Origin: Spirogloea muscicola
Lineage: Eukaryota > Streptophyta > Zygnematophyceae > Spirogloeales > Spirogloeaceae
Length of the DNA: 36,775 nt
Assembly: GCA_009602725.1 (NCBI GenBank)
Contig: WELB01000415.1
Location: 5,375 to 42,149, forward strand
Direction of reading: 5' to 3'
A program made the position numbers and the translations under genes. The notes beneath the pieces were generated by a model. The model had not been told where the DNA came from, made no database searches, and saw only the letters and a program-made list of their open reading frames with translations. How positions within the stretch are numbered: the stretch's first letter is position 1; each line of letters starts with the position of its first letter. Shown piece after piece: positions 12,881 through 36,740 of this stretch.

Positions 12881-12882
12881 GA

Positions 12883-12975
12883 AGAAAGTGCTCGCTTATT
12901 GAGAATAGGGGCTGGAACAACCAGCCCGAAAAAGAATGAACAGAGTACGAGAAGGGGGCCAGGGGAAGCGCTAAG
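12883..12975 (-). mobile_element. Family A LINE-like 3' end, truncated
   Basis: On the minus strand this is the 3' UTR tail of family A: a GCGCTTCCCCTGGCCCCCTT block, then CATTC, then the GGGCTGG/CCAGCCC hairpin, ending GCACTTTCTTC. The ORF end is degraded. Confidence 0.75.
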
Positions 12976-13352
12976 AATCAGAAACAAAGCAGCACAGCAA
13001 GCCCTGCAACGGCGGCCGTGGCAGCGAGGAGCAGTAGATGGTGACACTTGTGGTCTTCCGATAGCTATATCCAGTGGAGAAGCCGCGCGGTGCGCATGAG
13101 ATGCGAGGGAAGTCAAAAAGCCGATGCAACTTTCGGGCAGAAAGAGGCTGTGGCGGAAGGGAAATTCTGGCCAAACAGAAGCAGTTCTTCTAAAGAGGGC
13201 GAGGTCTAGGTACGGCCGCCCACAATAAGAAAATTGCTCGCTCACAGTAAAAGAAGAAGCCCATGCAAGAAGAAGAAGGAAATGGATAGACAAGGCCCCG
13301 TAGAAAAAATACTCGTCCAGTAGAGGGCGGTGGCTGTGATAGGCCAGCCCAG

Positions 13353-13466
13353 TAAAGAAAGAAGAAAGTGCTCGCCCATTGAGAATAGGGGCTGGATCAA
13401 CCAGCCCGAAAAAGAATGAACAGAGTACGAGAAGGGGGCCAGGGGAAGCGCTAAGTAACAGAAAGG
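13353..13466 (-). mobile_element. Family A LINE-like 3' end, truncated
   Basis: This is the same tail as at 12883-12975, again in minus orientation. It reads from TTACTTAGCGCTTCC through the hairpin GGGCTGG-TTGAT-CCAGCCC to GAGCACTTTCTTC. It is cut off 5' of the ORF stop. Confidence 0.8.
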
Positions 13467-13524
13467 TTGACCAGAGGTCGGAGGGTCAGAAAAACGTTGA
13501 AGCACACACCGACTGAAGTGGCCA

Positions 13525-13612
13525 CCCCCTGGTGATGTAGATTTTTAGATGTGCTTGCCTTTTGTACCTGGCCATTTGGCCTACATTTCTTTCTAATACA
13601 CGATCTCTTCCT
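13525..13612 (+). mobile_element. Family F 3' UTR copy
   Basis: About 85 nt match the reverse complement of 32400-32490, including the GGCCA-TT-TGGCC hairpin and the end CACGATCTCTTCC. It lies in opposite orientation to the ORF remnant at 13613-13800 and appears to interrupt it. Confidence 0.7.
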
Positions 13613-13800
13613 GGTGAGCAGCCGCAGGTCAGAGAAAGGACAAGGAAGTAGTCTCCGGGTAGCCGGTCCCCTGTCTATAGCCAGAGGCTGCAGCCAAAGC
13701 GACCGGCACGCAGACGCAACCCTTGTCATTGACCGCGATTGCAGCGATACTGCCAGGCGCATGCGACACACCTGGGCGAGAAGGTGCAGAGGTGCCGGAC
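13613..13800 (-). pseudogene. LINE-like ORF C-terminal remnant
   Basis: The minus strand encodes AQVCRMRLAVSLQ, then a diverged stretch, then FSDLRLLTRK. This parallels the family A end at 36500-36668 (AQVYRMRLAVSLQRSMARAL). It has no start, no catalytic domain and probable frameshifts, so it is a dead fragment. Confidence 0.65.
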
Positions 13801-13829
13801 AGAAGAGCGGACAAGAAAATGCTCGTCCC

Positions 13830-14063
13830 AGAGAAGAAGAAAGTGCTCGCCCATTGAGGATAGGGGCTGGAAAAGCCAGCCCAAAAAAGAATGAACAGAG
13901 TACGAAAAAGGGGGCCAGGGGAAGCGCTAAGAAAAACAAGCACACCTAGAAACAAAGCAGCTACGGATCACTCAGTAACCCCTGCTAAGCAGCCTCAGGG
14001 TCAGAGACGCTAGGCTCCTGGAAGTGGGTCCCAAGGAGGCCGGTGGCCTCTGATACGCCGTCC
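13830..14063 (-). mobile_element. Family A LINE-like 3' end with ORF terminus
   Basis: Read on the minus strand, the ORF end RLLSRGY-stop (13995-13972) follows a stretch matching the DPTSRS/GTHFQEP region of family A. The 3' UTR then carries the hairpin GGGCTGG-CTTTT-CCAGCCC and ends CACTTTCTTCTTC. Confidence 0.8.
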
Positions 14064-14351
14064 CGAATGGGCACCGGCAAGGGGACAAGCAAAGCCCCCC
14101 GTGGCTACAAGGTTTGCACAACTCGCGGCGGGGCCTACGTCGGGGAGGGTCGGTCGGGAGCCAAGTTGCAGTCGGTCGGGGGCTAAGTTGCAGAGGCAAA
14201 GAGGGGAAAGAACGTAAGGCATGGCCGTGAGAGGTCCAGTCCAAAAAGAGAAAGTGGCTTCCAAAGGGGGCGAGGCCGTACGAAGCAAGCTCGAAACAAA
14301 TGGACAAGATCTGAAGAATGCGCTGAATCCCCATAACTAACTCTGACAGAA

Positions 14352-14690
14352 GAAAGTGCTCGCCCATTGAGAATAGAGGAGCTCGCCCATTGAGGATAGG
14401 AGCTGGAAAGCCAGCCCAAAAAAGAATTAACAAAGGACGACAGAGGGAGCATGACTCTTCCAGAAGATGGCGACAGCTGTGATTGGGCATCCCACAAAAG
14501 GAATGAACAAGGCAATTTGACACTCTTCCAAAAAAGAAGATAGACGCTTCCAAGAGAGGAAGAAGTGCTCGCCCATAGAGAAGAGGGGCTGGCGAAGGAA
14601 GGTGCTCGCCCATTGAGAAGAGGGGCTGGCAAAGCCAACCCAAAAAGAATGGACAATGTTCAAAGCCAAAGAAAGAGGTGCCGAAACAGG
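14352..14690 (-). repeat. Array of truncated hairpin tails
   Basis: At least four very short tail modules lie head to tail in minus orientation. Each contains CTCGCCCAT(A/T)GAG or CTCTTCC..., a GGCTGG/CCAGCC-type stem-loop, and AATGAACAA or AATGGACAA. They look like severely 5'-truncated retroelement ends inserted into one another. Confidence 0.65.
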
Positions 14691-14754
14691 ACTACACTAC
14701 CAAACACGACAACGCAGTAGGGAAGCTCAGTACGCGCGAGTGAGCAACATCAGA

Positions 14755-14930
14755 TCGAAGAGGCTGGGAGGCCAGCCCAGAAAAAGGAATGAACAAAGTT
14801 TGAAGGGGCCAGGGAAAGCGCTGAAGCTAGCACACACTAAATCAAGCAGCTACGAAACACTCAGTAACCCCTGTCAATCTGGACGCGCTGTTTCCCCTGC
14901 TAAGCAGCTGCAGGTCAGAGGATAAAGAAG
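14755..14930 (-). mobile_element. Family A variant 3' end with nested 20-nt insertion
   Basis: A minus-strand family A tail with the hairpin near 14765 and the GGTTACTGAG ORF end near 14862. The ORF end is split at 14874-14893 by 20 nt resembling the last bases of family B in plus orientation. Direct CCCCTG repeats at 14868-14873 and 14894-14899 flank the insertion. Confidence 0.7.
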
Positions 14931-15235
14931 TGAGCTCTTCCAAAAGGGGCGGGGGCTGTGAAATGCAAGCGCGGCCTGAAAAGAGTGGAAAGCCAGCCCA
15001 GAAAGGATGAACAAGGTCCGAAGGGCCGAAATAAACAGCTCCTCCAGTGGCTGTGAAAGAATGAGCTCGCCCACAGAAAAGAGGGGCTGGCAGAAGCCAG
15101 CCAAAAAAGAATGGACAAAATCCAAAGATGGCCGAAAGGGCCAGAAAACAGCTCTTCCAGATTGACAGCAATGGCTGTGAGAGGCCAGCACAAAGGAATG
15201 GACAAGGTCTGAAAGGGCCGGATGGCGCAAAAAGC
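14931..15235 (-). repeat. Array of truncated hairpin tails
   Basis: About four modules in minus orientation. The shared elements are AGCTCTTCC or AGCTCCTCC, GGCTGTGA, GGCCAGCCC or its variants, GAATGGACAA, and GGTC(C/T)GAA(A)GGGCCG. None retains coding sequence. Confidence 0.65.
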
Positions 15236-15400
15236 AGGATACTAGTTTCCAAAACGTCAGCTAGTGGGTCTCAATGACCTCTAGTCAGTAAGACAAGTCT
15301 GACTAAGTAGAGGTTGGAAAAGCGACACCCTGACGGAACACGGAGGCAGCAGCCAAAGTGCACGCAAGCGGACGGCAAGTGCCAGAACCACACAGCGATG
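15198..15400 (-). mobile_element. Family D LINE-like 3' end
   Basis: The minus strand contains an ORF end reading LLTRGH-stop (15291-15271), then a tail with TCCGGCCCTTTCAGACCTTG and a hairpin. The same composite, more diverged, recurs at 22620-22850. The upstream block shared with that copy includes GGAGGCAGCAGCCAA. Confidence 0.6.
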
Positions 15401-15439
15401 CAAGAGACAAGGGCCTGATTAGAAAAGCAAGGGCCGGAC

Positions 15440-15618
15440 AGGGCAGAGAGCGTCTCCGACCTGAGGCTGCTTAGCAGGGGTTACTGAGTAATCCGTAGCT
15501 GCTTTGTTTCTTTGTGTGCTTGTTTTCCTTAGCGCTTCCCCTGGCCCCCTTCTCGTCTTCTGTTAGTTCCTTTTTTGGGCTGGCTTTTCCAGCCCCTATT
15601 CTCAATGGGCAGAGAACA
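15440..15618 (+). mobile_element. Family A LINE-like 3' end
   Basis: The plus-strand ORF end is LRLLSRGY-stop (stop near 15486). The GCGCTTCCCCTGGCCCCCTT block, the GGGCTGG-CTTTT-CCAGCCC hairpin and CTATTCTCAATGGGC follow. It forms an imperfect inverted repeat with 15705-15868. Confidence 0.8.
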
Positions 15619-15703
15619 CGTACGAGGTAGCGGGCCGCGAGCGGCCGTGCCGAGCGACCCGCCCAGATGGCTCGGGAGTGCGTCGTGGCCGCGCTGCCGC
15701 CAA
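15608..15703 (-). repeat. Family C GC-rich repeat, copy 1
   Basis: It shares CAGAGAACAC, then GGGCCGC(A/G)AGCGGCC, then GAGCGACCC with 16136-16233. The minus strand of both encodes a similar GRSARPLAA.YLVRVLC peptide. The function is unknown. Confidence 0.6.
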
Positions 15704-15704
15704 A

Positions 15705-15868
15705 GAAGAAAGTGCTCGCCCATTGAGAATAGGGGCTGGAACAACCAGCCCGAAAAAGAATGAACAGAGTACGAGAAGGGGGCCAGGGGAAGCGCTAAGT
15801 AACAGAAACAAAGCTGCTACGAGACACTCAGTAACCCCTGCTAAGCAGCCGCAGATCAGAGATGTGAA
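15705..15868 (-). mobile_element. Family A LINE-like 3' end, young subtype
   Basis: Its minus strand is nearly identical to 35400-35545 and 35580-35716. The ORF end is LRLLSRGY-stop, followed by GTTACTTAGCGCTTCCCC, the GGGCTGG-TTGTT-CCAGCCC hairpin, and GCACTTTCTTC. Confidence 0.85.
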
Positions 15869-16135
15869 AAAGCCAGCCCAGAAGAGAGAGAGAAGGCGCG
15901 CGGGGCGCATGAATTGAAAGGGAGGCCAATTCAAGCCAATACATTGTTCAGGCAGAGTCGAGTGCAGTCTAAACAATGCTACATAATACGGAGACCTAAT
16001 CTAAGGTACCTAAGATGACATTAGTACCCACGGGTGAGCACAAAAGCCAGAAAGAGCGAACAAGGTCCGAAGGGCTGGAAGGCGCCAAAAGCACACAACG
16101 ATGTGAGAGACGAAGGCCCTGCAAGGGCCGTAAAG

Positions 16136-16233
16136 GGCAGAGAACACGCACGAGATAGAGGGCCGCAAGCGGCCGAGCCGAGCGACCCTTGAGACGGCGT
16201 GGGTGGGCGTCGTGGCCCACGCTGCCGTCTCGG
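16136..16233 (-). repeat. Family C GC-rich repeat, copy 2
   Basis: Second copy of the block described at 15608-15703. The GC-rich sequence up to about 16680 may continue the same element, but I recognise no protein in it. Confidence 0.55.
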
Positions 16234-17027
16234 GGCCCGCTTCCGCGACGTCAGCCGGGGGGCGGGGCTTCTACGTCGGGCCCGCCCCCCCTGGCGGACG
16301 TCGCGGATCTCCTCTCCAGGTGCTCTCTGATGGCCCGCATGGCACCTTCCCCGGTGCAGGACGGCCTTCGAGGCCTCATGAGCTTCCCAGTCTTGTCGTT
16401 TTCCGGTGCGGGTGTGGTCGCGGGTCTGTCTCTGGTGGCGGTGACCGGCCCGGTCCAGGCCACCTGGCAGGGGGGTCTCAGGAGAACCCATCAGCATCTT
16501 GGCGCGCGGGGCAACTCCGGGGACGTCGGGGTCGTCTCGCCTGTCCTGGGGAAGACCAGGCCCAGCGGGGGGCTAAGAGGGGGAGAGCGCCCCGAGGGAG
16601 GGGCCCCCTCGTAGCCGTGAGCGCGGGGCGGGGAGGGAGGGAGCCCCCCCCCCTCGCCGCCCCGGCCCGCCTTCCACCCCCCCGGGCCTTATTATGGGCT
16701 CCCGGAACCTGCGCCTTGTCAGTCAGTTCAGCCTCCCCTCCCTCCCCACAAGCTGCCTCTGCCGCTCCTCGCCTCCACTACTCCTGTCAGTGCGTACTGC
16801 TGCCGCTCTGCCTTAAGCCTCCTCGCAGCGGCCTCTCAGCCACAGCTCCTTGGCCTTGGCGACCTCTGCGTCGTCGCGAAGCCACTTCAGGTCGAGGCTG
16901 GACCGCTCGCAGACGACGACTCCCAGGCTGCTGCCGTCCTCCAGCACAGGGCTGGCTGCACCACCTCGAGAGACTCTTCCGGTCAGAGCGGTAGAGCAGT
17001 TGCGGCGCGTTGGCAGCCGCGGGAGCC
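16234..17027. other. GC-rich flank and probable promoter of the beta-helix gene
   Basis: Very GC-rich, with C and G runs at 16640-16690. A weak TATA-like TTATTATG lies at 16689-16696, about 330 nt before the ATG at 17028. No supported gene is visible: the long open frames on both strands are what this composition produces by chance. Confidence 0.4.
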
Positions 17028-20000
17028 ATGGCGGCGCTGCAAGCACCATGCTGGCGACCTGTGCTGCTGCTCTGGTTACTGTGCTCCTTGCTCGTCTTGG
17101 GTGAGAGCTCCGTCTTGAGAAGTTGGTGCCCCTTGATCGTGCTCGGCCGCGCATAAGCAGCATGCGCAGCCAGTAGTGCGAGCACGTCCTCAGATGCACT
17201 CCAGGTTCTCGTTGCTAGCTTTGCGTGCTCGCGTGCTTATCCAAAGCCACTGCTGCTCCCATGCAGGCGCCTCCAATGAAGCTCCTATCGGAGCTCCATG
17301 GCTCGCACCCCTTGGATCTCCATTGGCCTCACCGGTTGAGGCCCCGGTGGCGGCACCAGAAGCCGGCGGGCCTACCTCCACTGTACTGGCCTCGTCAGTC
17401 ATGCCACCTCCAGCAATCACTATTGCTGGTTTGGGAAGAGCGGCCCCGCCGCCGCCGCTGAAGGCCCGGCGCATCAGCCGGCTCCGCAACGTGTCTGAGG
17501 ACGGCCCACCACCGACTCCTGCTCCCACCATGTCACCAACGCCGCTGCCGCCGGTGGCTATCCCTGCTCCAGCGCCATCGCCAACTGAAGCTCCATCACC
17601 AACACCATCGCCCAGCCCCGCTGCACCGCCCACACCAGCTCCTTCCCCATCACCGTCACAACCTCCATCATCGCCGCCGCTGCCAACCCCTGCTCCCGCA
17701 CCCTCGCCAGTGCCCTTCCCCCTGCCGCCATCGCCACCGCCGCCATCGCCACCGCCGCCGGCGCAACGCCCGCCCACGCCAGCTGCTCCCCTCCGGAGGT
17801 CGCCGCCACCGGCACCTAAGCTCTCTCCACCGCCACCAGCGCCCAAGTACTTGCCTCCACCGCCGCCCAAGCACTCGCCGCCACCGCCGTCCCCGCCCAA
17901 GAGCTCACCGCCGCCACCCAAGGGCATGCACAAGTCTCCGCCGCCGCCGCTCAAGCACTCGCCGCCACCGCCGCCGCCCAAGAAATCGCCGCCACCGCCG
18001 TCGCTGCCCAAGCACTCGCCCCCACCACCCAAGGGCATGCACAAGTCTCCGCCGCCGCCCAAGCACTCTCCGCCGCCGCCCAAACGCTCGCCGCCACCGC
18101 CGAAGCGCTCGCCGCCACCACCCAAGGGCATGCACAAGTTTCCGCCACCGCCCAAGCGCTCGCCGCCGCCGCCCAAGCGCTCGCCGACGCCGCCCAAGAG
18201 GCCGCCACCGCCGCCGCACTCGCCGCCCCCTGCCGCACCAATCCGGCGATCGCCTTCACCGCCCCCCATCTCTCCTCCCCCAGTGCAAGGCCATGGAGAA
18301 GGTAAGAGTGACATACTCACCACTTGGAGCTCTGAGCAGTCTGAGCAGCTAATTGCATCATCTATTGGTGCCATCCCATCTGCCTGACAGTAAACTTAGA
18401 TGAAATAGTTGATTCTTAGCAGATCCTCTGCCTCATTAACCATACTCAGTGCCAATTGTCCTGGTGATGCACTGCAGGTTGCAGCGCAAACCGCGTCACG
18501 ATCGAAGTCAATTCACCCGATGACATCAAAAAGCGAACGGGGTACCTGAGCACTCAGACAGTTGTGCTGGTACTCCAGCATGACATCACAGTACCCTCAA
18601 CGCTACGCCTGGACAAGTCGTACTCATGCACAATCATGACATCGCAGGGCGCCAACACCTACACCATCCGCACACAGAATGACAGGAGTGTGGCGGTCTT
18701 GATCACCGGCGTGCAGCACTTCCTGATGGTTCGCGTGAGCGTATATGTGCCCATTGTCGTCGACAAGTCCCCATCACCCTGCCCATACAAGGTCTACCAG
18801 CACCTGCAGATCGGCTATTGCCCTGCTGTGGTCATCAGCTACTCAAACCTCGTTCAGATTGTCAAAGGGAACTTCGATGGCGCAATCCACCTCTTCACAA
18901 GCACCAACTCTCTCATTGACTCAAATACCATAAGAACACATGACTTCTCTGTCATTGTCGGCGGCACTGGCGGCGGCAAGTGGACAACGGCAAAGATGAA
19001 TCACGTCGTCAGCAACAACCACATTTCTGGAGAGATTGTAGGCATCAATGTTGCATACGGGGCTGTGGGCGTTGAAGTCTCCAACAACTACATTACCGAT
19101 TTCATTTTTGCTGGCATCTCCCTTGGACGAGGTGTTCACAACACCGGCGATGGTAAGCCCGCACGCTGAACATGTGATGACCTGCACATGTTTCCTCGCG
19201 CCTCCCAGTGCATTCACCTAAATTGCCCTGCTTTACTTATAGGAGTTCATATCCAGCAGCTAATGGACGTCCTCGTGTGCCACTTGCAGCAATGTTTATC
19301 ACCCTATCTAACAACTACATGGACATCAAGTCAGAAACACCTTACATTCCTGATGCTACCGGAATCTACATGGTCACCCACTGGATCAACCCAGGTTAGT
19401 GAATAGGAGAATCAATGTCGCCTGTGACAAGTGCAATGTGCTGTGCTTGACTCTTAATTGCTGCTTTGCGCTCTGCAAGCATGCCCCAATAGTCACACTT
19501 GTGCTGTTGATTGATGTTAACACCTGTATACTTCGATCTGGTGCAGGCAATCACCTCAAATGCAACTATGTCGTTGGAAGCATCCCGCACTGCGTTTACC
19601 TCGACTTTGCCAGCTCAGGCTACCAGATTGATGGGCAAGTGTGCATTGGAACTGGGAACGGCTTGAAGGCCAATACGGGCCACAACAACAACATTCTCGG
19701 CATGGTCATAGCAGACCCGTATGCACAACCTGGCTACATTGCTCCACAGCTAAACTGGAACTGTGTCAGTGACCCTGGCATCTCCTGGGATTCTGATCGC
19801 CGGAAGTACTTTGACACCCCAGACTTTCAGAAGGTCAGTCCATCTATATCCTCATAAGCCTCACTTGGTGATGCTTGCTACCACCAGAGCTTTCACCATG
19901 CAAAGCAGTTCGCTTCTGCTTCAAGTGTCCAGTAAACTGACCTTCCTAGCTCCTGTTTTATGTCCAGGCCTACCCGTGGCTTCAGGACTTCTGCAAAATC

Positions 20001-21630: not shown

Positions 21631-21631
21631 T

Positions 21632-21740
21632 TTCTTTTGTGTGCTTCTTGGTGCCTCTCGGCCCTTTGCACCTTGCTCGTTCTTTGGGCTGGCCTCTCAC
21701 AGCCATTGCCTTACATTGAACGAGCTGTTTCTCGTCTAGG
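21632..21740 (+). repeat. Hairpin tail module
   Basis: CTCGGCCCTTTGCACCTTG, then CTTTGGGCTGGCCTCTCACAGCC, then a terminus GAGCTGTTTCTCG. It has the same layout as the other 3'-end tails, without ORF sequence. Confidence 0.65.
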
Positions 21741-22619: not shown

Positions 22620-22850
22620 AACAGCTTTTCCAATATAAGGCAGTGGCTGTGAAAAGCTAGCCCAAAGGAATGTACAAGGTCTGAAAGGGCCGGATGGTGC
22701 CAAGTGCAGAATACTGTTCTTCAAGACGTCAGCAAGTGGGCGCTTTAGTCAGCAAGTGTAAACCAGAAGAAGGCGGAAAATCGTCGCCCTAACAAAGCCC
22801 GGAGGCAGCAGCCAAGGCGCGACCTGCACGCAAGTGGACGGCAAATGCTA
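22620..22850 (-). mobile_element. Family D LINE-like 3' end, diverged
   Basis: It parallels 15198-15400: GGTCTGAAAGGGCCGGATGG, then GACGTCAGC(A/T)AGTGGG, then TAGTCAG, then GGAGGCAGCAGCCAA and CACGCAAG(C/T)GGACGGCAA. The ORF end is degraded. Orientation is inferred from the copy at 15.3 kb. Confidence 0.6.
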
Positions 22851-27410: not shown

Positions 27411-27854
27411 GGAGGGCCTTATGGAGGCACTCATAGCGGCGGCCATGGAGTAGGGGTCGTGCGGGGCTGGGTGGGCCGGGGCCGGGCGGCGGTGGCAGCC
27501 GCCATGGCGGAGGCCGGGAGGAGCTGCAGGCCACGGGGGGGGGGGGGGGTTTCCTTCCCCCGGGGTCGCTCTGTGGGATTCACCTGGCGCGAGATGCGGC
27601 GCTACGGACGGGGCGTGCCGTCCGGCGGCCGGAGGTACGTCCCCACTCCTGGGGACAAATGCTGCCCCAGGGGGGTAGGTGGGGTGATCAAAACTCCCCC
27701 CGCTGGACCCTCTCCACAGTATGGGCTCGCTAGTTTCTGCCCAGCATGGCCCGAGTGTTTTGTGATCAGAAGAAGCGGCACTCCCAGTGGCACTCCCAGC
27801 CTTTCCCAGCCACCAGTCAATCTGGCCGCGCATCCTTGCAGTGGGGGCAAAAGA
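27411..27854. other. GC-rich upstream region, no gene
   Basis: It contains a run of 15 G (27535-27549) and a CCGG-rich sequence. A plus-strand open frame across it has no recognisable domain and reads like composition-driven noise. Confidence 0.5.
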
Positions 27855-27953: not shown

Positions 27954-28178
27954 AAGCGCGGCCACATTAACAGGTGGCTAGGAGAGGCCAGCCCAAACCA
28001 CCAAGCGCGGCCAGATAAATTGGTGGCTGAGGCCAGCCCAAAAGAAGGGAAGCGCGGCCAGATTGACTGGTGGCTGGGAAAGGCCAGCCCAAAGGAGAAG
28101 CGCGGCCAGATTGACTGGTGGCTGGGAAAGGCCAGCCCAAAGGAATGGACAGTGTCTAAAGGAGCCGGAGTGTGAATG
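27954..28178 (-). repeat. Four tandem family B hairpin tails
   Basis: Units start near 27954, 28014, 28051 and 28098. Each reads AGCGCGGCCAGATTGACTGG (or a variant), then TGGCTGG(GAAA)GGCCAGCCCAAA. This is the reverse complement of the family B 3' terminus. Only the last unit continues into GAATGGACA and the CCGGAGTG block, as expected if successive copies were cut off just 5' of the hairpin. Confidence 0.8.
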
Positions 28179-28289
28179 ACAACCAATTACTGGCCACTCC
28201 AGGCCTGTCCCTATACGAAAGCGCGTTTGTATTCTCCCGTTCTGTTATAGCATTCTGAGTCCCCTCCGTCATGTGGCCCCTTCGAACCT

Positions 28290-28455
28290 TCAGCACTTCT
28301 TTTGGTTACTGAGGTTGCTGAGCGTTCCCTGGCTGATGTCTTAGTCCTAGTCCTTCGTACAACTGACTGCTTCCAGACCTTGCTTCAGACCTTGTCCATT
28401 CCTTTGGGCTGGCTTTTCCCAGCCACCAGTCAATCTGGCCGCGCTTTGCATCTTT
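28290..28455 (+). mobile_element. Family B LINE-like 3' end
   Basis: GGTTACTGAG-like start, then TGAGCGTTCCCTGGCTGATG, the TCAGACCTTGTCCATTCCTTT block, the hairpin GGCTGG-CTTTTC-CCAGCC, and CAGTCAATCTGGCCGCGCTT. Confidence 0.75.
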
Positions 28456-28911
28456 TGGGGCTGGCTTCTCACAGCCATTGCCCCCATTGAGAGATCCACT
28501 TCATCCGTCCCTTCGCGTCCACTTCAAGCGCCTGCAGGACTGGCAGATGAAGCAGCCTCAGCAGGTAAAGCGCCCCCACAGTTGGTCAAATCAGTTGTGC
28601 CCAGTCCAGCGGAGCAAAACCAGGCGGGGGGCCCGGATCGGCGCCCGCCCGGCGGTCTCCACGTGCAACACGTGGCGACGCCGCCGCGATCCTCGCCGCG
28701 AGGTGCGGCGGGCGCGCGGGCGCGCCCCCCGGGTCGTCTCCGACGTCGGGCCCCTTGTCGTTTTGCGGAGGCGGGGGACGGTGGGTGGGGCCCACCTCCC
28801 TTCCCTCCCTGAAGCTCAGTTTCTTACACTATCGTCAGTGACTGTCCTACATGGTCCTTGCTCAGTCACATCTCTTTCAGCGATTTCTGGCTTGCATCCA
28901 CTGACCAGAAG
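28456..28911. other. GC-rich unassigned segment
   Basis: The extreme GC core at 28620-28800 (GCGCGCGGGCGCGCC-type) resembles 16230-16340 only in composition and scattered words. No gene is recognised. It could be the 5' part of a repeat. Confidence 0.4.
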
Positions 28912-29000
28912 AAAGCGCGGCCAGATTGACTGGTGGCTGGGAAAGGCCAGCCCAAAAGGAATGGACAAGGTCTGAAGGAGCCGGAGTGCGAAGGACTGAC
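28912..29000 (-). mobile_element. Family B tail, left arm of inverted pair
   Basis: Minus-strand tail from ACTCCGGCTCC through the GGGCTGG/CCAGCC hairpin to GGCCGCGCTTTCTTC. It pairs with the plus-strand copy at 29003-29128. Confidence 0.75.
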
Positions 29001-29002
29001 CA

Positions 29003-29128
29003 GAGGTTACTGAGAGTCCCCTTGCCGATGTCTTTGTCCTTCCGCACTCCGGCTCCTTCAGACATTGTCCATTCCTTTGGGCTCGCCCCCCCCTGCCACC
29101 ACTTAAGCTGGCCGCGCTTGTCTCTTTC
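29003..29128 (+). mobile_element. Family B LINE-like 3' end, right arm of inverted pair
   Basis: AGAGGTTACTGAGAG, then GATGTCTTTGTCCTTC, CACTCCGGCTCCTTCAGAC, a damaged hairpin (GGGCTCGCCCCCCCCTGCC) and GGCCGCGCTTGTCTC. Confidence 0.7.
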
Positions 29129-29194
29129 GGAGTAAGTAGTTGTCCTACGTGGTCCCTGCTTAGTCATATCTGTCAGCGCTTTCTCGCCCTCGGA

Positions 29195-29478
29195 CCTTGT
29201 CAGCTGTCTTCGGAGTTTCCTTCTGGGATGGCCAATCACAGCCATCGCCCCCCTTCTGGAAGGACCACAGCCCTCGCCCCCTTGTGTGGAGCAGCGCCCC
29301 CTTCTTTTCGGCCCCTTCGAACCTTGTCAACTCTTTTCGGGCTGGCTATTCACAGCTCTCGACCCCTTTGATCATTGCTTAGACTCTAGGCGCTTTACGG
29401 CCACCAGTCAATTTGGAAGCGCTGTTTCTTCACGGCCCCTTCAGACCTCGTCATATCTTTTCGGGCTGGCATTCTCGC
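29195..29478 (+). repeat. Series of diverged hairpin tails
   Basis: At least four modules with GG(G/A)(C/T)TGGC...CAGCC or its variants, such as CGGGCTGGCTATTCACAGC and CCCTTCGAACCTTGTCAAC. They lie in plus orientation just before the organelle-type tRNA segment. Confidence 0.55.
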
Positions 29479-29514
29479 TCCTAATGGTCGCAGGTTCAAG
29501 CCCTCTACACTCAG

Positions 29515-29594
29515 GCGGGTATGATGGAATTGGTAGACAAGCTAGCTTAGGTTCTAGTGAAATTTTCATGGGGGTTCGAGTCCCTCTACCCGTA
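29515..29594 (+). tRNA. tRNA-Leu(UAG)-like, bacterial/organelle type
   Basis: The acceptor stem GCGGGTA pairs with TACCCGT (29587-29593) with one G-U. The D-arm has AATTGGTAGACA as in plastid tRNA-Leu. A variable arm TGAAATTTTCA and a T-arm GGGGG-TTCGAGT-CCCTC follow. The anticodon loop holds TAG, but the stem closes only with an 8-nt loop, as if one base changed. This suggests a non-functional nuclear copy. The genomic sequence has no CCA. Confidence 0.6.
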
Positions 29595-29597
29595 TCT

Positions 29598-29680
29598 GGA
29601 TGGATGTGTGAGTGGTTGAAGGTCCCAGTCCTGGAAAGTGAAGTACAATTAATACCGGGGGTTCAAATCTCTCTCCATCC
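29598..29680 (+). pseudogene. tRNA-Ser-like sequence, organelle type, degenerate
   Basis: The seven-pair acceptor stem GGATGGA/TCCATCC is perfect. The D-arm GAGTGGTTGAAGG, a GTACAATTAATAC variable arm and the T-arm GGGGG-TTCAAAT-CTCTC fit class II tRNA-Ser. The anticodon stem does not pair properly (loop perhaps CTGGAAA, anticodon GGA), so it is probably broken. Confidence 0.5.
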
Positions 29681-30040
29681 CAAGCACTCGCTTAGACTCA
29701 ACGCTATATCTTGTCTAAGCCTCACGTCGACATAAGCTACTCCTTGTGTGCCTCGTTTCGGCTAAAACTACCCGCGCCGATCGGCGCCTCTCCTTGTCCG
29801 GGCGTGCGTGCGCCCCGCTACACCTTACCTACTCGGACGCCGAAGGCGTGCGTCACGACCCTCTACAACGGCGGGGCCCAAGGACATTTCTGTCGCGAAT
29901 CAGTGTCCAGATCTCCGCTGCCATCCACGACCCAAGTCGGCAGTCAGTCGAGTGGGCCAGTGCTGAGCTCCCACGAAACATGCGTGCTGGAGCTCGTCCA
30001 CCGTATAAGTTAAACACTATGTTTACGTCACTCCTTATCG

Positions 30041-30295
30041 AGTTAATATATCCGTTGCAGTGCTCTGCCAATCTGGTCGCAGATTCCTTGTGCAGCTTAG
30101 TCGTATTCTTGCACCGAGAGAAAGGAGCAGGCATGGCTGAGGAGCCGAGACTTAGTATGAGAATGTGATGCAGGGCAAGTCAGGCACCTGAAGCTTCCTC
30201 AGCTGAAACGAAGCCATCCGCATCTTCTTTGGTGTCGAGATGCTTTTGCTGGCAATGACATTGCTACACTCCAGGCGGCAAGAGTAGTCACTTTT
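30041..30295. other. Unassigned sequence
   Basis: No gene or repeat is recognised between the organelle-type segment and the next hairpin tails. Confidence 0.4.
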
Positions 30296-30500
30296 GCAGG
30301 AGTACAGGAGTACAGGAGTAGAAGCAGCTCTTCCAACTGGGCTGAAAAAGCCACCCCACAAAAGCAATGAACAAGATCTAGAGAGGCCGGAATGAGGTGG
30401 ACAGCACAGGAGAGACTAACGAATAGAAAAGAATAGCTTTTCGATGTAAGGCAGAGGCTGTGAGGGGCTAACCTAAAGAATGTATAAGGTCTGAAGGGGC
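30296..30500 (-). repeat. Hairpin tails next to a short AGGAGTAC repeat
   Basis: A triple AGGAGTAC-type repeat (30298-30322) precedes CAGCTCTTCCAACTGGGCTG, then GAAAAAGCCACCCC and AATGAACAAGATC. A second module follows with GGCAGAGGCTGTGAGGGGCT, then GAATGTATAAGGTCTGAAGG, in minus orientation. Confidence 0.5.
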
Positions 30501-31609
30501 CGCAAAATGCACGAATCGGATCCAGCAGGAGCCTCTGCCGGGAGCCCAGTCTCGGAGATTGGCAGTGGCCGTGTTGAGAGCACGGCCGGGAATCTTAGCT
30601 CGGAAAGCGCACGCGGAAGCGTGGTGCCGCAGAGAGGCGCCTGGTGGGCATGCCTAACGAGGCCCGGAGAGGGCGCCCTATTAAGCAAGCCGAGTTCCTT
30701 GGGGCCAGGAGCTGCCACGGGGCGCCTGCCCAAATTTGGGCCGCTCTCTGGCTGGGGCTCCTGGGGCCGCATTCCCCCATCCCCTTGCCATCATCACAAG
30801 CCATGGCGCTTTTACGGCGCGCAGTGGGGCGCCCTCCTGGCCACCATCTTCTGCGGGGGCAAGCTCCGAGGGCGCCCCACACAGCGAGAGCTGTGCCCGA
30901 CCTTTGTCGCTCACCATATATCACTTACAGCATCCCCATCATTTGCAAGTATTGCTGGCCTTGCGGTGCTCGCTTGGTGTTGTCAATGACAGCATCACCA
31001 CCATTAGTGCTGGCGTCGTGGTGGTGCACTGTAGCGGAGCGCCTGCTCTCGCTCGCGTGAGCGTGCAGACAAAGCGACATGACGTCCCGGCTCTCTACGG
31101 GCGGGGAAAGACGTCGCGATGGGGCCCGCCATGATTGCCACCGCCGCGGCGCGCAGCCGTTCGGCGCGGCGGGGCGACGTGGGCGGCCCCACTGCCGCGC
31201 CCGCGGGATGGCGGCAATGGCGGGGCCTTGCCGCCCTGCCCCTCGTGTGTTAGGATGTCGGGGGACCAGGTATCTGGAGAAGAAGCTCTTCCAAAACAAA
31301 TCACTGGGATTGAGTGGGCACCCAGCCGTCGTCGCCATCTGTGTAGCGGTGTCTTTGTCGTTTCAGGGCCCCTCAAGCAGGCAGGTGTTTCGCATGCGCC
31401 TGTCCAAATCCATGCGCCATAATAGCCTTTTTAATATTGGAGTCATTTATGGCGCCACCGGTCCATGGCTCACGCCTTGTACATGCGTGCTGCCATGCTC
31501 TAGCTGCACCCTCTGGCTTCCGTCAAGGGGACTGCTTTCCGCTTCTGGTCTTCCTAACTCGAGGCTGCTAAGCGAAGGTCACCATGTGATTATCCTACAT
31601 GGTACGTGA
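30501..31609. pseudogene. GC-rich unassigned DNA with a LINE-like ORF remnant
   Basis: A 160-codon plus-strand frame (30507-30989) opens here, but I recognise nothing in it. Near 31370-31420 (+) the peptide QVFRMRLSKSMRHNSL resembles the QVYRMRLAVSLQRSM segment of family A. At least part of this region is therefore a degraded retroelement ORF. The rest remains unassigned. Confidence 0.4.
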
Positions 31610-32095
31610 AAAAGTCTAGCAATTTCCGGCCCCTTCTGACCATTTCGATTTTTCGGGCTGGCTTCCATAGCCCTCCACCCCTAAGGAAGGAGCTCACTTC
31701 ACCTTTCCGACCTTGTCTGCGTGTTTTGACTAGCGTAAACTGGAAGAGCTGTTTTATTGGGCTGACTTTTCTCAGTCATCGCCCTTCTGCTGTTTGGGAG
31801 TGGCTCAAGGCCACCGCTTCCTGTGGACGAGCATAATCTTCTGGAAGAGGGCGATGGCTGTGGACTGTCAAGCAGCTTCAGAGAAGGGGAGGGCTGTGGA
31901 AGGCCAGCCCACAATTGGCTGAACAAGGTCCAGGGTCCAGGGCCCAGGGTCCAGGGCCCATGCCTTTCTGTAGAGCTATTCCCGTCCTGTTGCATTTTTT
32001 TAGCTGTCCGGCCCCCTTATAGACCTTGTCCACTCATCTGTGGGCTGGCCTCTGACAGCAATTTCCCTTAATTGGATGAGCTGTTTCTTCCAAGA
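31610..32095. repeat. Mixed-orientation hairpin tails
   Basis: Plus-orientation modules lie near 31625-31700, 31735-31795 and 32010-32095, and a minus module near 31838-31930. The 31757 module has the stem GGCTGA/TCAGTC in place of GGCTGG/CCAGCC. Next to it, 31928-31960 is a CCAGGGTCCAGGGC micro-tandem. Confidence 0.6.
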
Positions 32096-32119
32096 GCCAG
32101 GCGAATTTTCTTGTATTCG

Positions 32120-32400
32120 AATAAACGGTCAAAACGACCAAGTGCAAAGGCAAGCACATCTGGTGATGTACATCACCTACTGCATGTTGACCGACCTCAA
32201 TAAGCACAGATTAACATGTAAAGGTCGCCTCATACGAGATACCTTCGATGCCTGACATCGGATGGCCACTTTCAAGCCCTTCTGCACCAAGTAGAGCTCC
32301 CCAGCTTTCTGGTGCAAAGCATGAGCCTGAGCACGCTGCACAGAGGCCGACACACGGCGGCGCAAGAACAACGGCTATGTAGCTGGCAAGCCCATCTCGG
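32120..32400 (-). pseudogene. Family F LINE-like 3' end, copy 1
   Basis: The minus strand encodes LRRRVSASVQRAQAHALHQK, then degraded sequence. Its 3' UTR keeps ATGTGCTTGCCTTTGCACTT and the hairpin GGTC-GTTTT-GACC. The copy next door at 32434-32703 is related across its whole length, about 308 nt away. Confidence 0.65.
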
Positions 32401-32433
32401 GGAGGAAGAGATCGTGTATTAGAAGGAAATGTA

Positions 32434-32703
32434 GGCCAAATGGCCAGGTACAAAGGCAAGCACATCTAAAAATCTACATAACCTACAGCAGATTGACCCG
32501 CTCAATAACCACGGGTCAAAACATAAAGGTCACTACTCGATGCATGAATACTAGTTGCCAGGAACGGAGCCCTTCTGCCACCTACTAGAGCTCGCCCAGC
32601 TTTGTGGTGCAAGGCACTAGCCTGAGCACGCTGCAAACAGGCCGAAACTCGTCGTCGCAAGAGCGACAGATGTGCAGCTGGCAAGCCCATCTCAGCCGGA
32701 AAC
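32434..32703 (-). pseudogene. Family F LINE-like 3' end, copy 2
   Basis: The minus-strand frame reads LRRRVSACLQRAQASALHHK, then AGRALVGG, and ends SSDLYVLTRGY-stop. This parallels YRMRLAVSLQRSMARALHLR and SDLRLLSRGY in family A. The 3' UTR runs to the GGCCA-TT-TGGCC hairpin near 32440. It is the C-terminus of a diverged LINE lineage. Confidence 0.75.
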
Positions 32704-32945
32704 ACATCTGCACGTCGGGGAGGGGGCCATGGCGGCTACGATGACGGCCAGCCCAAGCTGAGAACGCCGGAAGAGGTAATAGCTCTTCCAATGTAAGGCA
32801 ATGGCTATTGGAGAGCAGCCCAAAATTGGACAAGAATGAATGAAAACTTGGCTGCCGTGGGCGGCAGCCAGTGACCAGAAGGTAGCCAGCCGAGGGGGAA
32901 AAGACGAGATGCGGCGCAGATAGCCACTGGACCGAGAGGACAGCT
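32704..32945 (-). repeat. Hairpin tail and flanking unassigned DNA
   Basis: Minus-oriented module at 32770-32840: AGCTCTTCCAATGTAAGGCA, ATGGCTATTGGAGAGCAGCCC, then TTGGACAA. The remainder is unassigned. Confidence 0.5.
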
Positions 32946-33655
32946 TCTCTGGGCGCAATGTTGGCATCTTTGTCGAGGCCGGTTACACGGGTGCGCTCGA
33001 GAATACCAGCATCATGCCTCCGACGGTTGGGGCGGATGGCCGCCTCCACACCCGGCGCGCCGATCTCGTCGCCAGCGCGCTCGGCGTGGGGCCTCGGCTC
33101 ATCGCCGACGTTGTCACGACTGACTGTTTTCATTCCAGGAGCGCCAAACGCGCGTTGTAGGAGGCGGGCTGCGCAGTCCGCCAAGCGGCGGGCGCAAAGG
33201 AACGTAAATACTCTGATCACCCGGTGGGAGACGAGTTTGTCCCACTCGCCGCCGACGTACACGGCGGTTTTGGCACAAATTGGCTTGACCTGCTTCACCG
33301 CTTTGCGGGCGAGCACCGGCCCGCCGCCTCGGGCAGCAGGGCGAGCAGCCTGGCTTCAATGTCGCCGGGTCCCTCGCTCACGTCTTCCGGATGTGCTTGG
33401 TTATCTCTTTGCAGCGGTCCCTCGCCTTTGCGGTTCACTTGCACGCAGGCCGCGCTTTGGCGGCGGCCTCGGGCTTCCGTCAGGGCGACATCTTTCCGCC
33501 TGTGAGCTATTCCGACTTGCATCTTTTGACTAGAGGTTACTGAGCGTCCTCTTGCTGATGTCTTAGTCCTTAGCACTCCGGCTCCCTCAGACCTTGTGCA
33601 TTCCTTTGGGCTGACCTCTCCCAGACACCACTTAATGTGGCCGCGCTTTCTCTCT
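32946..33655 (+). mobile_element. Family B LINE: ORF C-terminal pseudogene plus 3' UTR
   Basis: It encodes, with at least one frameshift and an internal stop, GIFVEAGYTGALENTS, HTRRADLVAS, LIADVVTTDCF, KERKYSDHPVGDEFVPLAAD, VHGGFGTNWLDLLHR, then after a frame change AGSLAHVFRMCLVISLQRSL and YSDLHLLTRGY-stop (33541-33543). The RxADL, DV, KxxKY and FVPLAxxxxG pattern is typical of the region C-terminal to the reverse transcriptase of non-LTR retrotransposons. The UTR ends with the family B hairpin and GGCCGCGCTTTCTCTC. No RT or endonuclease domain is left. Confidence 0.8.
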
Positions 33656-33879
33656 TCTCTGGGCCCATGATTCTTTAATGTCAACCTCACATTGTTTGGA
33701 TCGTACACTATAATTTCCATGCTAGTCCAAGAGAGGATTCCAGCTGAATGCCCAACTAACAAATCTGCGCCGCATTGAAAATCACCCCCGGAAAGAAGGA
33801 CGCTTCCAGCAGAGAGCGGTGGCTGTGAGAGAAAAGTGGCTCTCCCAGAGGAGATGAGATGGAGAAGAGAGCTCTCTAT

Positions 33880-33955
33880 CTTTCTGTGTGCTTGTCTTTC
33901 GTAGCGCTTCCCCTGGCCCCCTTCTCGTACTTTGTTCATTCTTTCTTCCTCAATG
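33880..33955 (+). mobile_element. Family A 3' UTR fragment
   Basis: GCGCTTCCCCTGGCCCCCTT, then TTTGTTCATTCTTTC, then CTCAATGGG. The hairpin itself is deleted. A family B copy follows at once. Confidence 0.7.
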
Positions 33956-33956
33956 G

Positions 33957-34140
33957 GTAAGCCCTTTCTCCCGGCTAGCTACTCAGACTTGCATCTCCTG
34001 ACTAGAGGTTACTGAGCGTTCCCTGGCTGATGTCTTAGTCCTGGTCCTTCGTACTCCGGCTCCTTCAGACCTTGTCCATCCCTTTGGGCTGGCCTTTCCC
34101 AGCCACCAGTCAATCTGGCCGCGCTTCCTTTCTCTCAATG
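33957..34140 (+). mobile_element. Family B LINE-like 3' end
   Basis: The ORF end ASYSDLHLLTRGY-stop (stop near 34013) is followed by the full family B UTR: TGAGCGTTCCCTGGCTGATG, CTCCGGCTCCTTCAGACC, the hairpin GGCTGG-CCTTTC-CCAGCC, and GGCCGCGCTTCC. Confidence 0.8.
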
Positions 34141-34480
34141 GCTGTGAAAGGCCAGCGGGGAAAGCAGCAAAGAAGAAGAAAGGCCTCGCCGATCAAGAAT
34201 AATGAGGAGAGCGGTTGGAAAAGCCGGCCCAAAAATGAAGGAACAAAGAACGAGAATGGGGCCAGGAGAAGGAGAAGTGCTCGCCCATAGAGAAGAGAGG
34301 CTGGCAAAGCCAGCCCTAATAAGAGTGGACAATGTCCAAAGCGAAAGAAAGAGGAGCCGGAAAAAGAAGAAGTGGCACTCGCATTGGGGGCAAGGGCTGT
34401 GAAAAGACAGCCCGAAAAGAATTGACAAAAGGTCGAAGGGACCAGAAAACGCTTAGCAGCTACGAAGGAGCAAGAAGAAG
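34141..34480 (-). repeat. Array of truncated hairpin tails
   Basis: Modules in minus orientation lie near 34200-34260, 34276-34340 and 34375-34476. The last closely resembles 27855-27953. The 34276 unit reads GTGCTCGCCCATAGAGAAG, then GGCTGGCAAAGCCAGCC. Confidence 0.6.
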
Positions 34481-34559
34481 GGGCCTGAAGAAGCTAAACA
34501 ACGGGGAAAAGGACTACACTACAAAAACTGCAAAAGACGGAGAATGGGAGGGAAGCTCA

Positions 34560-34790
34560 GGGAGAAGAAAGTGCTCGCCCATTGAGGATAGGGGCAGGAA
34601 AAGCCAGCCCCAAAAAGAAGCAACAACCGATGAGAAGGGGGCCAGGGGAAGCGCTAAGAAAAACAAGCACACAAAGAAAAACAAGCACACAAAGAAACAA
34701 AGCAGCTACGGATCACTCAGTAACCCTTGCTAAGCAGCCCCAGGTCAGAGACGCTAGGCTCCTGGAAGTGGGTCCCCTGGCCAGAGCCAG
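34560..34790 (-). mobile_element. Family A LINE-like 3' end
   Basis: The minus-strand ORF end (GTHFQEP-like, then LLSKGY-like stop near 34718) is followed by the UTR and hairpin to GCACTTTCTTC. A 17-nt unit (AAAAACAAGCACACAAAG) is duplicated at 34664-34697. Confidence 0.8.
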
Positions 34791-34899
34791 AGAGCTCGCC
34801 CGCAGAGAAGAGGGGCTGGCAAAACCAACCCAAAAGAACGGACTATGTCCAAAGGCAAAGCCAAAGAAAGAAGTGCCGTCAGGGGGCCAGCAAGGGGGC
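34791..34899 (-). repeat. Hairpin tail with short duplication
   Basis: GAGCTCGCCCGCAGAGAAG, then GGCTGGCAAAACCAACCC, then GAACGGACTATGTCC. Nearby GGGGGCCAGCAA occurs twice in tandem. Confidence 0.5.
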
Positions 34900-35545
34900 C
34901 AGCAAAGCCCCTCAACCTGTGAGGGGGGCGGGGCCGGGTGCTTCGAACGGCCGGCTGCCGCCTTATCGGACTGACCGCCTGGGCGGCCGAGAAGCCACCA
35001 CGTGGCGGGTGCGCAGTGGTTCTGAGCCAGTTCTTTTTCCCGCTGGCAATTGATACCCATGGGGCGTTGGGCGCTCGGTGGCTCGAGTTGCTCACCCAGC
35101 TCGCCCGCCACGCCATCGCCCGTCGCTTCCATGGGGCGGGGAGCGGATAGGACGCGGCACGGCCCGCCGTCGACAGGCGGGAGAGCTGGTGGCGCGGGCG
35201 CAAGTGGGCGCCTCGGCGCGCGGCTCGGCGGCACGACTCGGGTCGGCCGTCGCGTCGACGTCGGAGCGGCGTCCCGCTTCCCTCCCCTTGGGAGGACCTG
35301 GGCGCCCTCCGGCCTTCGTGCCGGCAGAGCCCTCGCTGCTGCCTCTGGCTCTGGCCAGGGGACCCACTTCCAGGAGCCCAGCTTCTCTGATCTGCGGCTG
35401 CTTAGCAGGGGTTACTGAGTGTCTCGTAGCAGCTTTGTTTCTGTTACTTAGCGCTTCCCCTGGCCCCCTTCTCGTACTCTGTTCATTCTTTTTCGGGCTG
35501 GTTGTTCCAGCCCCTATTCTCAATGGGCGAGCACTTTCTTCCGGG
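34900..35545 (+). mobile_element. Family A LINE: ORF C-terminal pseudogene plus 3' UTR
   Basis: The plus strand encodes SQFFFPLAIDTHGALGARWL and ELLTQLARHAIARRF, then a stop. Later it encodes AGRALAAASGSGQGTHFQEP and SFSDLRLLSRGY-stop (stop near 35415). The FPLAIDTHGALG segment matches FVPLAADVHGGFG of family B. The UTR has the TTGTT-loop hairpin and ends GCACTTTCTTC. It is frameshifted and has no catalytic domain. Confidence 0.8.
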
Positions 35546-35577
35546 GCTGTCCCCGGCCCTCCCCGGGGCTACTTAAA

Positions 35578-35717
35578 AAGGGGTTACTGAGTGTCTCGTA
35601 GCAGCTTTGTTTCTGTTACTTAGCGCTTCCCCTGGCCCCCTTCTCGTACTCTGTTCATTCTTTTTCGGGCTGGTTGTTCCAGCCCCTATTCTCAATGGGC
35701 GAGCACTTTCTTCTGAT
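35578..35717 (+). mobile_element. Family A 3' end, near-identical second copy
   Basis: It begins exactly in the ORF end (GGGGTTACTGAGTGTCTCG) and repeats 35407-35543 with no difference I can see until GCACTTTCTTC. The spacing is 173 nt. It is a 5'-truncated recent insertion or local duplication. Confidence 0.85.
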
Positions 35718-35744
35718 AGGAACGCACGACCTGCTGCGGGATGC

Positions 35745-36460
35745 CATTTTGGCATCTTTGTCGAGGCCGGTTATGCGGTGGCGCTCGAGAACACCAGCGT
35801 CATGCCTCCGACCGTTGGGGCGGATGGCCGCATCCACACCCGGCGCGCCGACCTCGTCGCCTTCTTCTTCGCTCGGCGGGGGACCTCGGCTTATCGCAGA
35901 CGTCGTCACAACTGACAGCTTCGTTTCCAGCAGCGCAACACGCTCGTCGGAGGAGGCGGGCTACGCAGTCAGCCAAGCGGCGGGCGAAAAGGAACGGAAG
36001 TACTCGGATCGCCCGGTGGGAGACGAGTTCGTTCTACTGGCAGTCGACGTGCACGGAGCCTCTGCCTCGAAATGGCTTGACTTGCTCCACCGCCTGGCGC
36101 GGCGTGCAGCGGCCCGCCGCCTCGGGCAGCAGGGCGAGCAGCCCCGCCCGGCTTCAACGTCGCCGGGTCCCTCGCTCAAGTTTTCCGTATGCGTTTGGCC
36201 GTCTCGATGCAGCGGTCCCTTGCCTTCGCGGTTCACTTGCGCGCAGGCCGAGCTTTGGCGGCGGCCTCCGGCTTCCGTCAGGGCGACGTCTTTCTGCCAG
36301 CTAGCTACTCGGACTTGCATCTCCTGACTAGAGGTTACTGAGCGTTCCCTGGCTGAGTCTTAGTCCTAGTCGTTCGCACTCAGGCTCCCTCAGACCTTGT
36401 CCATTCCTTTGGGCTGGCCTTTCCCAGCCACCAGTCAATCTGGCCGCGCTTCTCCTCTTC
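35745..36460 (+). mobile_element. Family B LINE: ORF C-terminal pseudogene plus 3' UTR, copy 2
   Basis: It is parallel to 32946-33655. It encodes FGIFVEAGYAVALENTS, HTRRADLVAF, and after a frame change IADVVTTDSF, EKERKYSDRPVGDEF, VDVHGASASKWLDLLHRLAR, then YSDLHLLTRGY-stop (36341-36343). The UTR runs through GGCTGG-CCTTTC-CCAGCC to GGCCGCGCTTCTCCTCTTCC. Confidence 0.8.
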
Positions 36461-36461
36461 C

Positions 36462-36740
36462 ATGGGGGAGCCGGTGGACTTTCTTGCAGCCGGGTCGCTA
36501 GCGCAGGTGTACCGGATGCGCTTGGCCGTCTCGCTGCAGCGGTCGATGGCCCGCGCGCTGCACCTGCGGGCCGGCAGAGCCCTCGCTGCTGCCTCTGGCT
36601 CTGGCCAGGGGACCCACTTCCAGGAGCCTAGCGTCTCTGACCCGAGGCTGCTTAGCAGGGATTACTGAGTGATCCGTAGCTGGTTTGTTTCTTTGTGTGC
36701 TATTTTAAATAGCGCTTCCCCTGGCCCCTGTCGTGCCGTA
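36462..36740 (+). mobile_element. Family A LINE-like 3' end with longest intact C-terminus
   Basis: One open frame reads AAGSLAQVYRMRLAVSLQRS, MARALHLRAGRALAAASGSG and QGTHFQEP, ending SDPRLLSRDY-stop (36666-36668). The UTR follows to GCGCTTCCCCTGGCCCC, where the copy diverges before the hairpin. Confidence 0.75.

Follow-up and report, generated by a model that had tools for sequence, protein, structure and literature searches.

The window analysed here, a 36,775-nucleotide stretch of contig C415 in a source genome of 153,112,186 bases and 471 contigs, holds fragments on both strands that end in a common C-terminal peptide, (L/V)L(S/T)RGY followed by a stop codon. These fragments are very probably 5'-truncated, often nested copies of several related lineages of long interspersed nuclear elements (LINEs), being non-long-terminal-repeat (non-LTR) retrotransposons of the type that carries a restriction-like endonuclease (RLE).

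A six-frame scan of the window found ten strict ends of this kind, compared with a mean of 0.01 and a maximum of one in 100 dinucleotide shuffles, with five on the plus strand (15467-15487, 33523-33543, 33995-34015, 35398-35418 and 36321-36341) and five on the minus strand (7597-7617, 13972-13992, 15828-15848, 16021-16041 and 32502-32522). A previous reading of the same DNA, made from the sequence only, had listed eleven such ends, nine of which are strict, the other two being the minus-strand close variants LLTRGL (about 7254) and LLTRGH (about 15271); the ends at 16021 (VLTRGY) and 36648-36668 (LLSRDY) were absent from that list. A slightly wider motif occurs at 103 sites over the window and the loci used, a list made without L001, L009, L069, L070 and L080, in which the overlapping L072 and L038 are both counted. 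Among the matches listed, seven types could be read by eye from the peptide and the 3' untranslated region (UTR): A (DLRLLSRGY), F (DLHLLTRGY or DLHLLSRGY), B (DLLLLTRGY, DLMLLTRGY), E (DLHLLTRGY, with a UTR different from that of F), G (DFLLLTRGY), D (DLYVLTRGY) and H (DLFVLTRGY). Five other C-termini are 71, 62, 39, 54 and 44% identical to that of F, with S.SD...L.RGY, D-V-V and K...Y invariant across the six aligned lineages, and a consensus C-terminus of S-x-S-D-(L/F)-x-x-L-(S/T)-R-G-Y-stop. The codons of the peptide vary among representatives (GGT, GGA, GGG; TAC, TAT), and, among the matches listed, most copies use TGA as the stop, with TAA replacing it in the majority of H copies and in some of G. 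Hence the peptide has been kept at the protein level. The ratio of nonsynonymous to synonymous substitution rates (dN/dS) was 0.176, 0.179 and 0.192 in three pairs.

C-terminus queries of the F, A and D kinds were run against the genome, with upstream extension for F. The 65-amino-acid (aa) F C-terminus matched all 150 scored candidates (17,374 at first look) with at least 91% identity, and the left alignment ends were staggered among these loci, as expected from 5' truncation. Walking upstream from F led to three gap-free parents, L079 (C36), L076 (C115) and L077 with L075 (C411), all of which end in the peptide; the open reading frame (ORF) of L079 is 1,521 aa from stop to stop, and 1,442 aa from an ATG shared with L077, while that of L076 is 1,130 aa. 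Open-frame lengths can be inflated by assembly gaps read as N, and the longest frames followed up from the C-terminal search (4,073 and 2,038 aa) were rejected as such gaps read through; one fetched A copy likewise consisted mostly of N.

The parents match the reverse transcriptase (RT) family RVT_1 of Pfam with E-values of 1.2e-14, 2e-11 and 7.5e-11, and a profile of their three RT regions retrieved the R2 retrotransposon proteins 9nl3 (E 5.7e-4) and 9dou (E 7.5e-4) from among 177,635 PDB sequences, the remaining three matches having E-values of 0.45 to 0.57. A single parent ORF carries, in order, a proline-rich N-terminus, one or two CCHC fingers, the RT, a CCHC knuckle and an RLE-like domain. 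The knuckle, C-x-C-G-x11-H-x3-C, precedes the last domain in L079 and L076, and the alignment rows of D and G show it too. The last domain has the pattern D-x(about 14)-D-V-V...K...Y, conserved in the C-terminal alignment, which by motif and position fits a putative RLE. No apurinic/apyrimidinic endonuclease (APE) family of Pfam was found at E up to 1 in the 1,521-aa and 1,130-aa ORFs. Full-length elements bearing an RT comprise F and B, by reading of the sequence, and A, by coordinates: 14 of the 18 places with an RT score of 332 bits have an A C-terminus with the same contig, strand and open-frame length, a strong but indirect indication that the RT and C-terminus of A share one open frame. 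D-family open frames of 1,056-1,562 aa occur at seven of 150 scored places, two longer frames having been set aside as probable gaps. The sequence-only reading had anticipated a full-length element with endonuclease and RT domains upstream of the tails; the RT is there in F, B and A, and the endonuclease would be restriction-like, by motif and position, rather than of the APE kind. No parent read resembles an LTR element or a DNA transposon, in keeping with the original assignment to LINEs.

One element, that of C411, is exactly delimited. It occupies 14725-19087 (4,363 bp) inside an A-family tail, with CTTAG on either side; once the element and one CTTAG are taken out, the joined flanks match the A tail at 112 of 120 bases, gap-free. 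No direct or inverted match was found between its first and last 300 bases, and it has no LTR. A flank word of at least 5 bp is shared by the two sides of 31 of 48 F copies (control mean 11.4, maximum 21.0, in 200 re-pairings), and one of at least 6 bp by 20 of the 48 (mean 3.6, maximum 10.2), including 7 of the 21 copies shorter than 130 bp. The aligned lengths of F copies range from 31 to 4,492 bp. Among copies that reach the 3' end of the probe, those consisting of UTR only number 39/67 for A, 20/50 for F, 3/19 for D, 19/29 for H, 3/11 for G, 0/1 for B and 13/23 for E, whose end is not fixed. The counts of tails by the family probes were made without the loci L001, L009, L069, L070, L072, L080 and L083, which have overlaps or gaps.

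The lineages share a 3' architecture. After the stop, the representatives have a UTR of about 96-133 nt and a hairpin, and for A, D, F, G and H the element ends 22-29 nt past that hairpin, by eye count. A, F, B, E and G form the hairpin from GGCTG...CAGCC or something close to it, and D from GGCC...GGCC, with the folds of the 27-28-nt hairpins being weak for H and D; representatives of B and E have the same hairpin, although their exact ends are not fixed. Neither poly(A) nor a simple repeat appeared past the tail ends in the 3' flanks read. Past the end, A, D, F and H continue with pyrimidine-rich first bases, as does G from its second base, but not E as anchored, the E anchor lying off the true end of that family and being kept in the set; the F anchor, with one mismatch allowed, takes in some non-F matches that were also kept. 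The pyrimidine share of the F 3' flank is 0.81 at +1 to +8 versus 0.56 at +16 to +30. These junctions are read as a preference of the insertions for short C/T tracts, some of the run possibly being encoded by the element, above all in A. Such a target taste is not itself new, as EhSINE1 of Entamoeba has a reported preference for pyrimidine-rich or T-rich sites (PMC2996970; this and the other papers cited here are drawn on through excerpts).

Insertions also tend to agree in direction. Neighbours of different families had the same orientation in 33 of 44 cases at gaps of at most 10 bp, 57 of 73 at up to 30 bp (P 1.5e-6), 82 of 121 at up to 100 bp and 124 of 187 at up to 300 bp, compared with 17 of 30 at 301-1000 bp. 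Landings in tails were modestly commoner than in the control on the same strand (36, control mean 27, maximum 39 in 500), and rarer on the opposite strand (17, control mean 23). The idea that tails are favoured landing sites found no support, with 53 of 175 copies landing in them against about 50 expected. Strand bias without enrichment of landings fits the targeting of pyrimidines in pyrimidine-rich sense strands, rather than an affinity for tails.

Together these features suggest how such copies may arise. The protein would bind the 3' hairpin of its own RNA and, to judge from the junctions, nick a short pyrimidine tract on its purine-rich strand, with the purine-rich 3' end then priming copying from the RNA tail; such target-primed reverse transcription would be consistent with the truncation and target duplications observed. 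Copying mostly stops early, leaving the short fragments that are seen. The sense strands of the tails being pyrimidine-rich, later insertions would tend to take the same direction, which may underlie the observed bias.

Several observations weigh against this interpretation, in addition to the lack of enrichment for landings in tails. A PDB search by the single sequence of L076 retrieved no RT at E up to 10, the RLE domain has no Pfam or PDB profile match, and the P of the RLE motif PD is replaced by A, V or L. The RT evidence is confined to F, B and A. A shared flank word of 6 bp is missing from 28 of the 48 F copies, and the smallest copies, whose 31-35 bp are the lengths of alignments, may represent remnants. 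The pyrimidine share of the F 5' flank is only 0.625, versus 0.55 further out, while A copies mostly read TTTCTTC past their end, meaning the pyrimidine run may be partly element-encoded. When the final 75 nt of F are folded to minimum energy, the hairpin formed by its 28-nt window is absent. Finally, orientation agreement in the window alone (25 of 43, P 0.26) is not significant.

The abundance of UTR-only copies, as in A and H, would also be expected if the short tail-only repeats were short interspersed nuclear elements (SINEs), or a separate non-autonomous family with a borrowed LINE 3' end, and LINE/SINE pairs with a common tail are known in Chlamydomonas (PMC3747384). However, the start points are scattered over both tail and coding region, the F copies grade in length between 31 and 4,492 bp, and no shared non-LINE head was noticed, though without a systematic search for one, making this very unlikely. 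It is hardly credible at all that a hairpin satellite or DNA transposon bears a non-coding motif (GGTTACTGAG) that reads as the shared peptide by chance: although the nucleotide motif recurs, and most short copies could not code, the codons differ between lineages, the long ORFs have a dN/dS of about 0.18, the RT-bearing parents contradict it, and the target duplications and empty site fit retrotransposition.

Another alternative is that the elements are Dualen/RandI LINEs, which carry both APE and RLE and are the RLE-bearing LINEs that the excerpts report for green algae. The host looks algal, albeit on weak grounds, and Dualen is found in relatives of Chlamydomonas (PMC8226300). Yet the search of the two ORFs for an APE was negative, one long ORF fills nearly all of the exactly delimited 4,363-bp element, and all eight RandI families tabulated in the excerpt of PMC3747384 end in repeats, none of which were seen here, making this identity very unlikely.

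These fragments are distributed over the window as follows, with percentages giving identity, and each peptide being followed by a stop unless described as degenerate:

7294..7467, plus: E-type LINE 3' end, 5'-truncated and decayed, 72% to the E probe
7597..7617, minus: LLTRGY end whose UTR looks B-type by eye (TGAGCTTCC)
12881..12993, minus: A tail, UTR only, 95.6%
13361..13464, minus: A tail, UTR only, 97.1%
13531..13606, plus: D tail, UTR only, 97.4%
13610..13780, minus: decayed A coding piece, 68%, and 51% over 59 aligned (E 4e-4)
13836..14032, minus: A 3' end, LRLLSRGY at 13972
14349..14450, minus: two A tail pieces (14349-14379, 14381-14450)
14559..14703, minus: A tail piece (14559-14592) and B tail (14616-14703)
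14772..14920, minus: two A pieces (14772-14873, 14894-14920)
15079..15127, minus: B tail piece
15150..15356, minus: E 3' end, variant LLTRGH at 15271
15449..15610, plus: A 3' end, LRLLSRGY at 15467-15487
15705..15864, minus: A 3' end, LRLLSRGY at 15828; 15705-15862 equals 35384-35541 at 100%
15891..16044, minus: H 3' end, VLTRGY at 16021, 98%
21670..21709, plus: E tail piece, beyond the span originally noted
22623..22831, minus: E 3' end, 76%, beyond the span originally noted
27799..27831, plus: short F tail piece, 100% over 33 bp
27954..28180, minus: four F tail ends in succession (44, 48, 47 and 83 bp)
28311..28446, plus: F tail, shared flank word TCTTTTGG
28455..28481, plus: E hairpin piece (E 4e-5)
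28913..28997, minus: F insertion of 85 bp, shared flank word TCTGGTCAGT
28996..29119, plus: F tail
30456..30505, minus: weak E tail piece (E 3e-6)
31382..31565, plus: decayed F-like coding, two pieces (E 2.5e-4)
31996..32082, plus: E tail, decayed
32132..32356, minus: older D 3' end, 73%
32409..32717, minus: D 3' end and coding (71 aa, 96%), YVLTRGY at 32502
32781..32834, minus: weak E tail piece (E 1e-4)
32939..33648, plus: F 3' end and RLE-region coding in a broken frame, LLTRGY at 33543, shared flank word TTCTCTGGGC
33899..33944, plus: A tail piece
33964..34126, plus: F 3' end, HLLTRGY at 34015
34203..34271, minus: A tail piece
34291..34370, minus: B tail piece
34564..34792, minus: A 3' end, finishing near 34720 in a degenerate LLSKGY as read from the sequence
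34806..34876, minus: B tail piece
35034..35135, plus: A coding piece (34 aa, 97%)
35313..35541, plus: A 3' end, LRLLSRGY at 35418, 98.7%
35579..35713, plus: A tail from GGGGTTACTGAG, 135 bp identical to 35407-35541
35748..36451, plus: F 3' end in three frame pieces running from the RLE region to the tail, HLLTRGY at 36341
36432..36728, plus: A 3' end and coding (78 aligned, 82%), LLSRDY at 36668; the A-tail match ends at 36728

The seven tail-family probes span 54% of 12,883-16,100 and 33% of 27,700-36,775, the latter rising to roughly 45% when coding pieces are added by hand. Hence the set explains a large share of the 12-16 and 28-37 kb regions, nearer half than the "most" originally claimed. 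The coding pieces in the window are truncated, and several are frame-broken, and so the description of the window as a graveyard of related LINE lineages is apt, but does not extend to the whole genome. There, a single score over 59 aa is common to 127 of the 150 A C-termini scored, and a single score over 66 aa to 68 of the 150 D C-termini scored; these many equal-scoring C-termini make both families look recently active elsewhere in the genome. Exact 3'-end words number 1,792 for F, 2,200 for A and 301 for D genome-wide, with none for the reversed-word controls. Two A copies with open frames of 1350 and 283, spaced by 5,023 bp, recur as a pair in C338 and C20 in opposite orientation, representing either a duplicated segment or an assembly duplicate.

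Beyond the window, a coding start resembling a cysteine desulfurase, which we take to be like NFS1, lies at about 2610-3312 of L075, about 200 bp downstream of the full-length F insertion, meaning insertions can sit near genes. Used as a genome-wide query, RVT_1 led to Ty3/gypsy elements wherever the RT frame was printed, and these were set aside as unrelated to the tail families. The RVT_1 matches lie at the ten loci L039-L048 (C33, C170, C235, C267, C412, C70, C80, C225 and C294), nine of which share a 1,237-aa open frame with equal or near-equal scores, indicating they are probably recent.

The remainder of the window contains other features. It begins with a run of 123 A (1-123), followed by a GCC repeat. 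A 416-aa open frame at 17137-18384 (plus) has SPPPP/KSPPPP repeats that are presumably akin to those of cell-wall glycoproteins, and no Pfam match. The stretches 18468-20518 (plus) and 23854-26153 (minus) form a related inverted pair, with 66-78% DNA identity in three blocks, and weak Pfam matches to right-handed beta-helix families, whose E-values of 3e-4 to 4e-4 fall short of the curated threshold. A 405-bp tandem duplication within 26060-26859, with 98-100% identity and one undetermined base, adjoins GGC-rich repeats, and is possibly an assembly artefact. Both cmscan and ARAGORN identified a tRNA at 29515-29594 (plus), its anticodon unclear, which we take to resemble plastid tRNA-Leu, and a second tRNA-like stretch was seen by eye at about 29600-29690; the region is possibly plastid DNA in the nuclear genome. 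The resemblance makes it likely that the host is photosynthetic, and probably an alga.

Known systems share parts of this organisation. By profile, the best solved RT is that of R2 (PDB 9dou, R2Tg; 9nl3), although the similarity is remote, and R2 has the same order of N-terminal fingers, RT, CCHC and endonuclease-like domain in one ORF, with frequent 5' truncation (PMC7650587). However, R2 sits in 28S ribosomal DNA, whereas the elements here are dispersed, with C-termini of F spread over many contigs, exact F ends numbering 1,792, and insertions in other LINE tails. The Utopia and NeSL elements likewise have one to three fingers, an RT, and a finger with an RLE (Kojima and Jurka 2015, PMC4640811), but Utopia, described from Amoebozoa, SAR and Opisthokonta, targets U2 small nuclear RNA genes, while the 3' flanks of the 69 F-anchor matches vary. 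Described as likewise lacking a unique target are the RLE-type LINEs BLAG, an R2-like element of cockroaches and hence animal-derived (PMC7650587), and HERO (PMC4640811). The pyrimidine-rich site preference resembles that described for EhLINE/EhSINE in a different host, Entamoeba, where EhSINE1 is thought to be moved by EhLINE1, and where the title of a paper cited in PMC2996970 attributes a restriction-enzyme-like endonuclease to EhLINE1. Dualen/RandI of Chlamydomonas are RLE-bearing LINEs of green algae (PMC3636483, PMC8226300, PMC3747384), but also code for an APE, and, as tabulated for RandI, end in repeats, neither of which was seen here. Zepp of Coccomyxa/Chlorella forms nested LINE clusters in a green alga (PMC3446292, PMC8226300, PMC3747384), yet is L1-type, each chromosome having one cluster, and a poly(A) end is listed for it, in contrast to these dispersed elements that end without a repeat.

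The elements are filed here as a group of RLE-type LINEs of an already known general kind. It is conceivable, if doubtful, that they constitute a separate RLE-only LINE clade, with at least seven lineages coexisting in an alga, marked by the C-terminal SxSD(L/F)xxL(S/T)RGY and a shared targeting of pyrimidine tracts. With every tail pyrimidine-rich on its sense strand, such lineages would build strand-coherent arrays within one another, having neither poly(A) nor a fixed genomic target. The literature searched, with most subscription papers and Repbase outside it, showed no report of RLE-only LINEs from green algae. LINE fragments explain much of a region that is otherwise unreadable, with thousands of exact 3' ends genome-wide, and provide several lineages that can be compared in their 3' ends, hairpins and conserved C-terminus. 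They offer a case of RLE-type LINEs, best known for strict targets, living dispersed with a loose preference for pyrimidines. If the host is a green alga, RLE-only LINEs would join the RandI/Dualen, RTEX and L1 types listed in the excerpt of PMC3747384.

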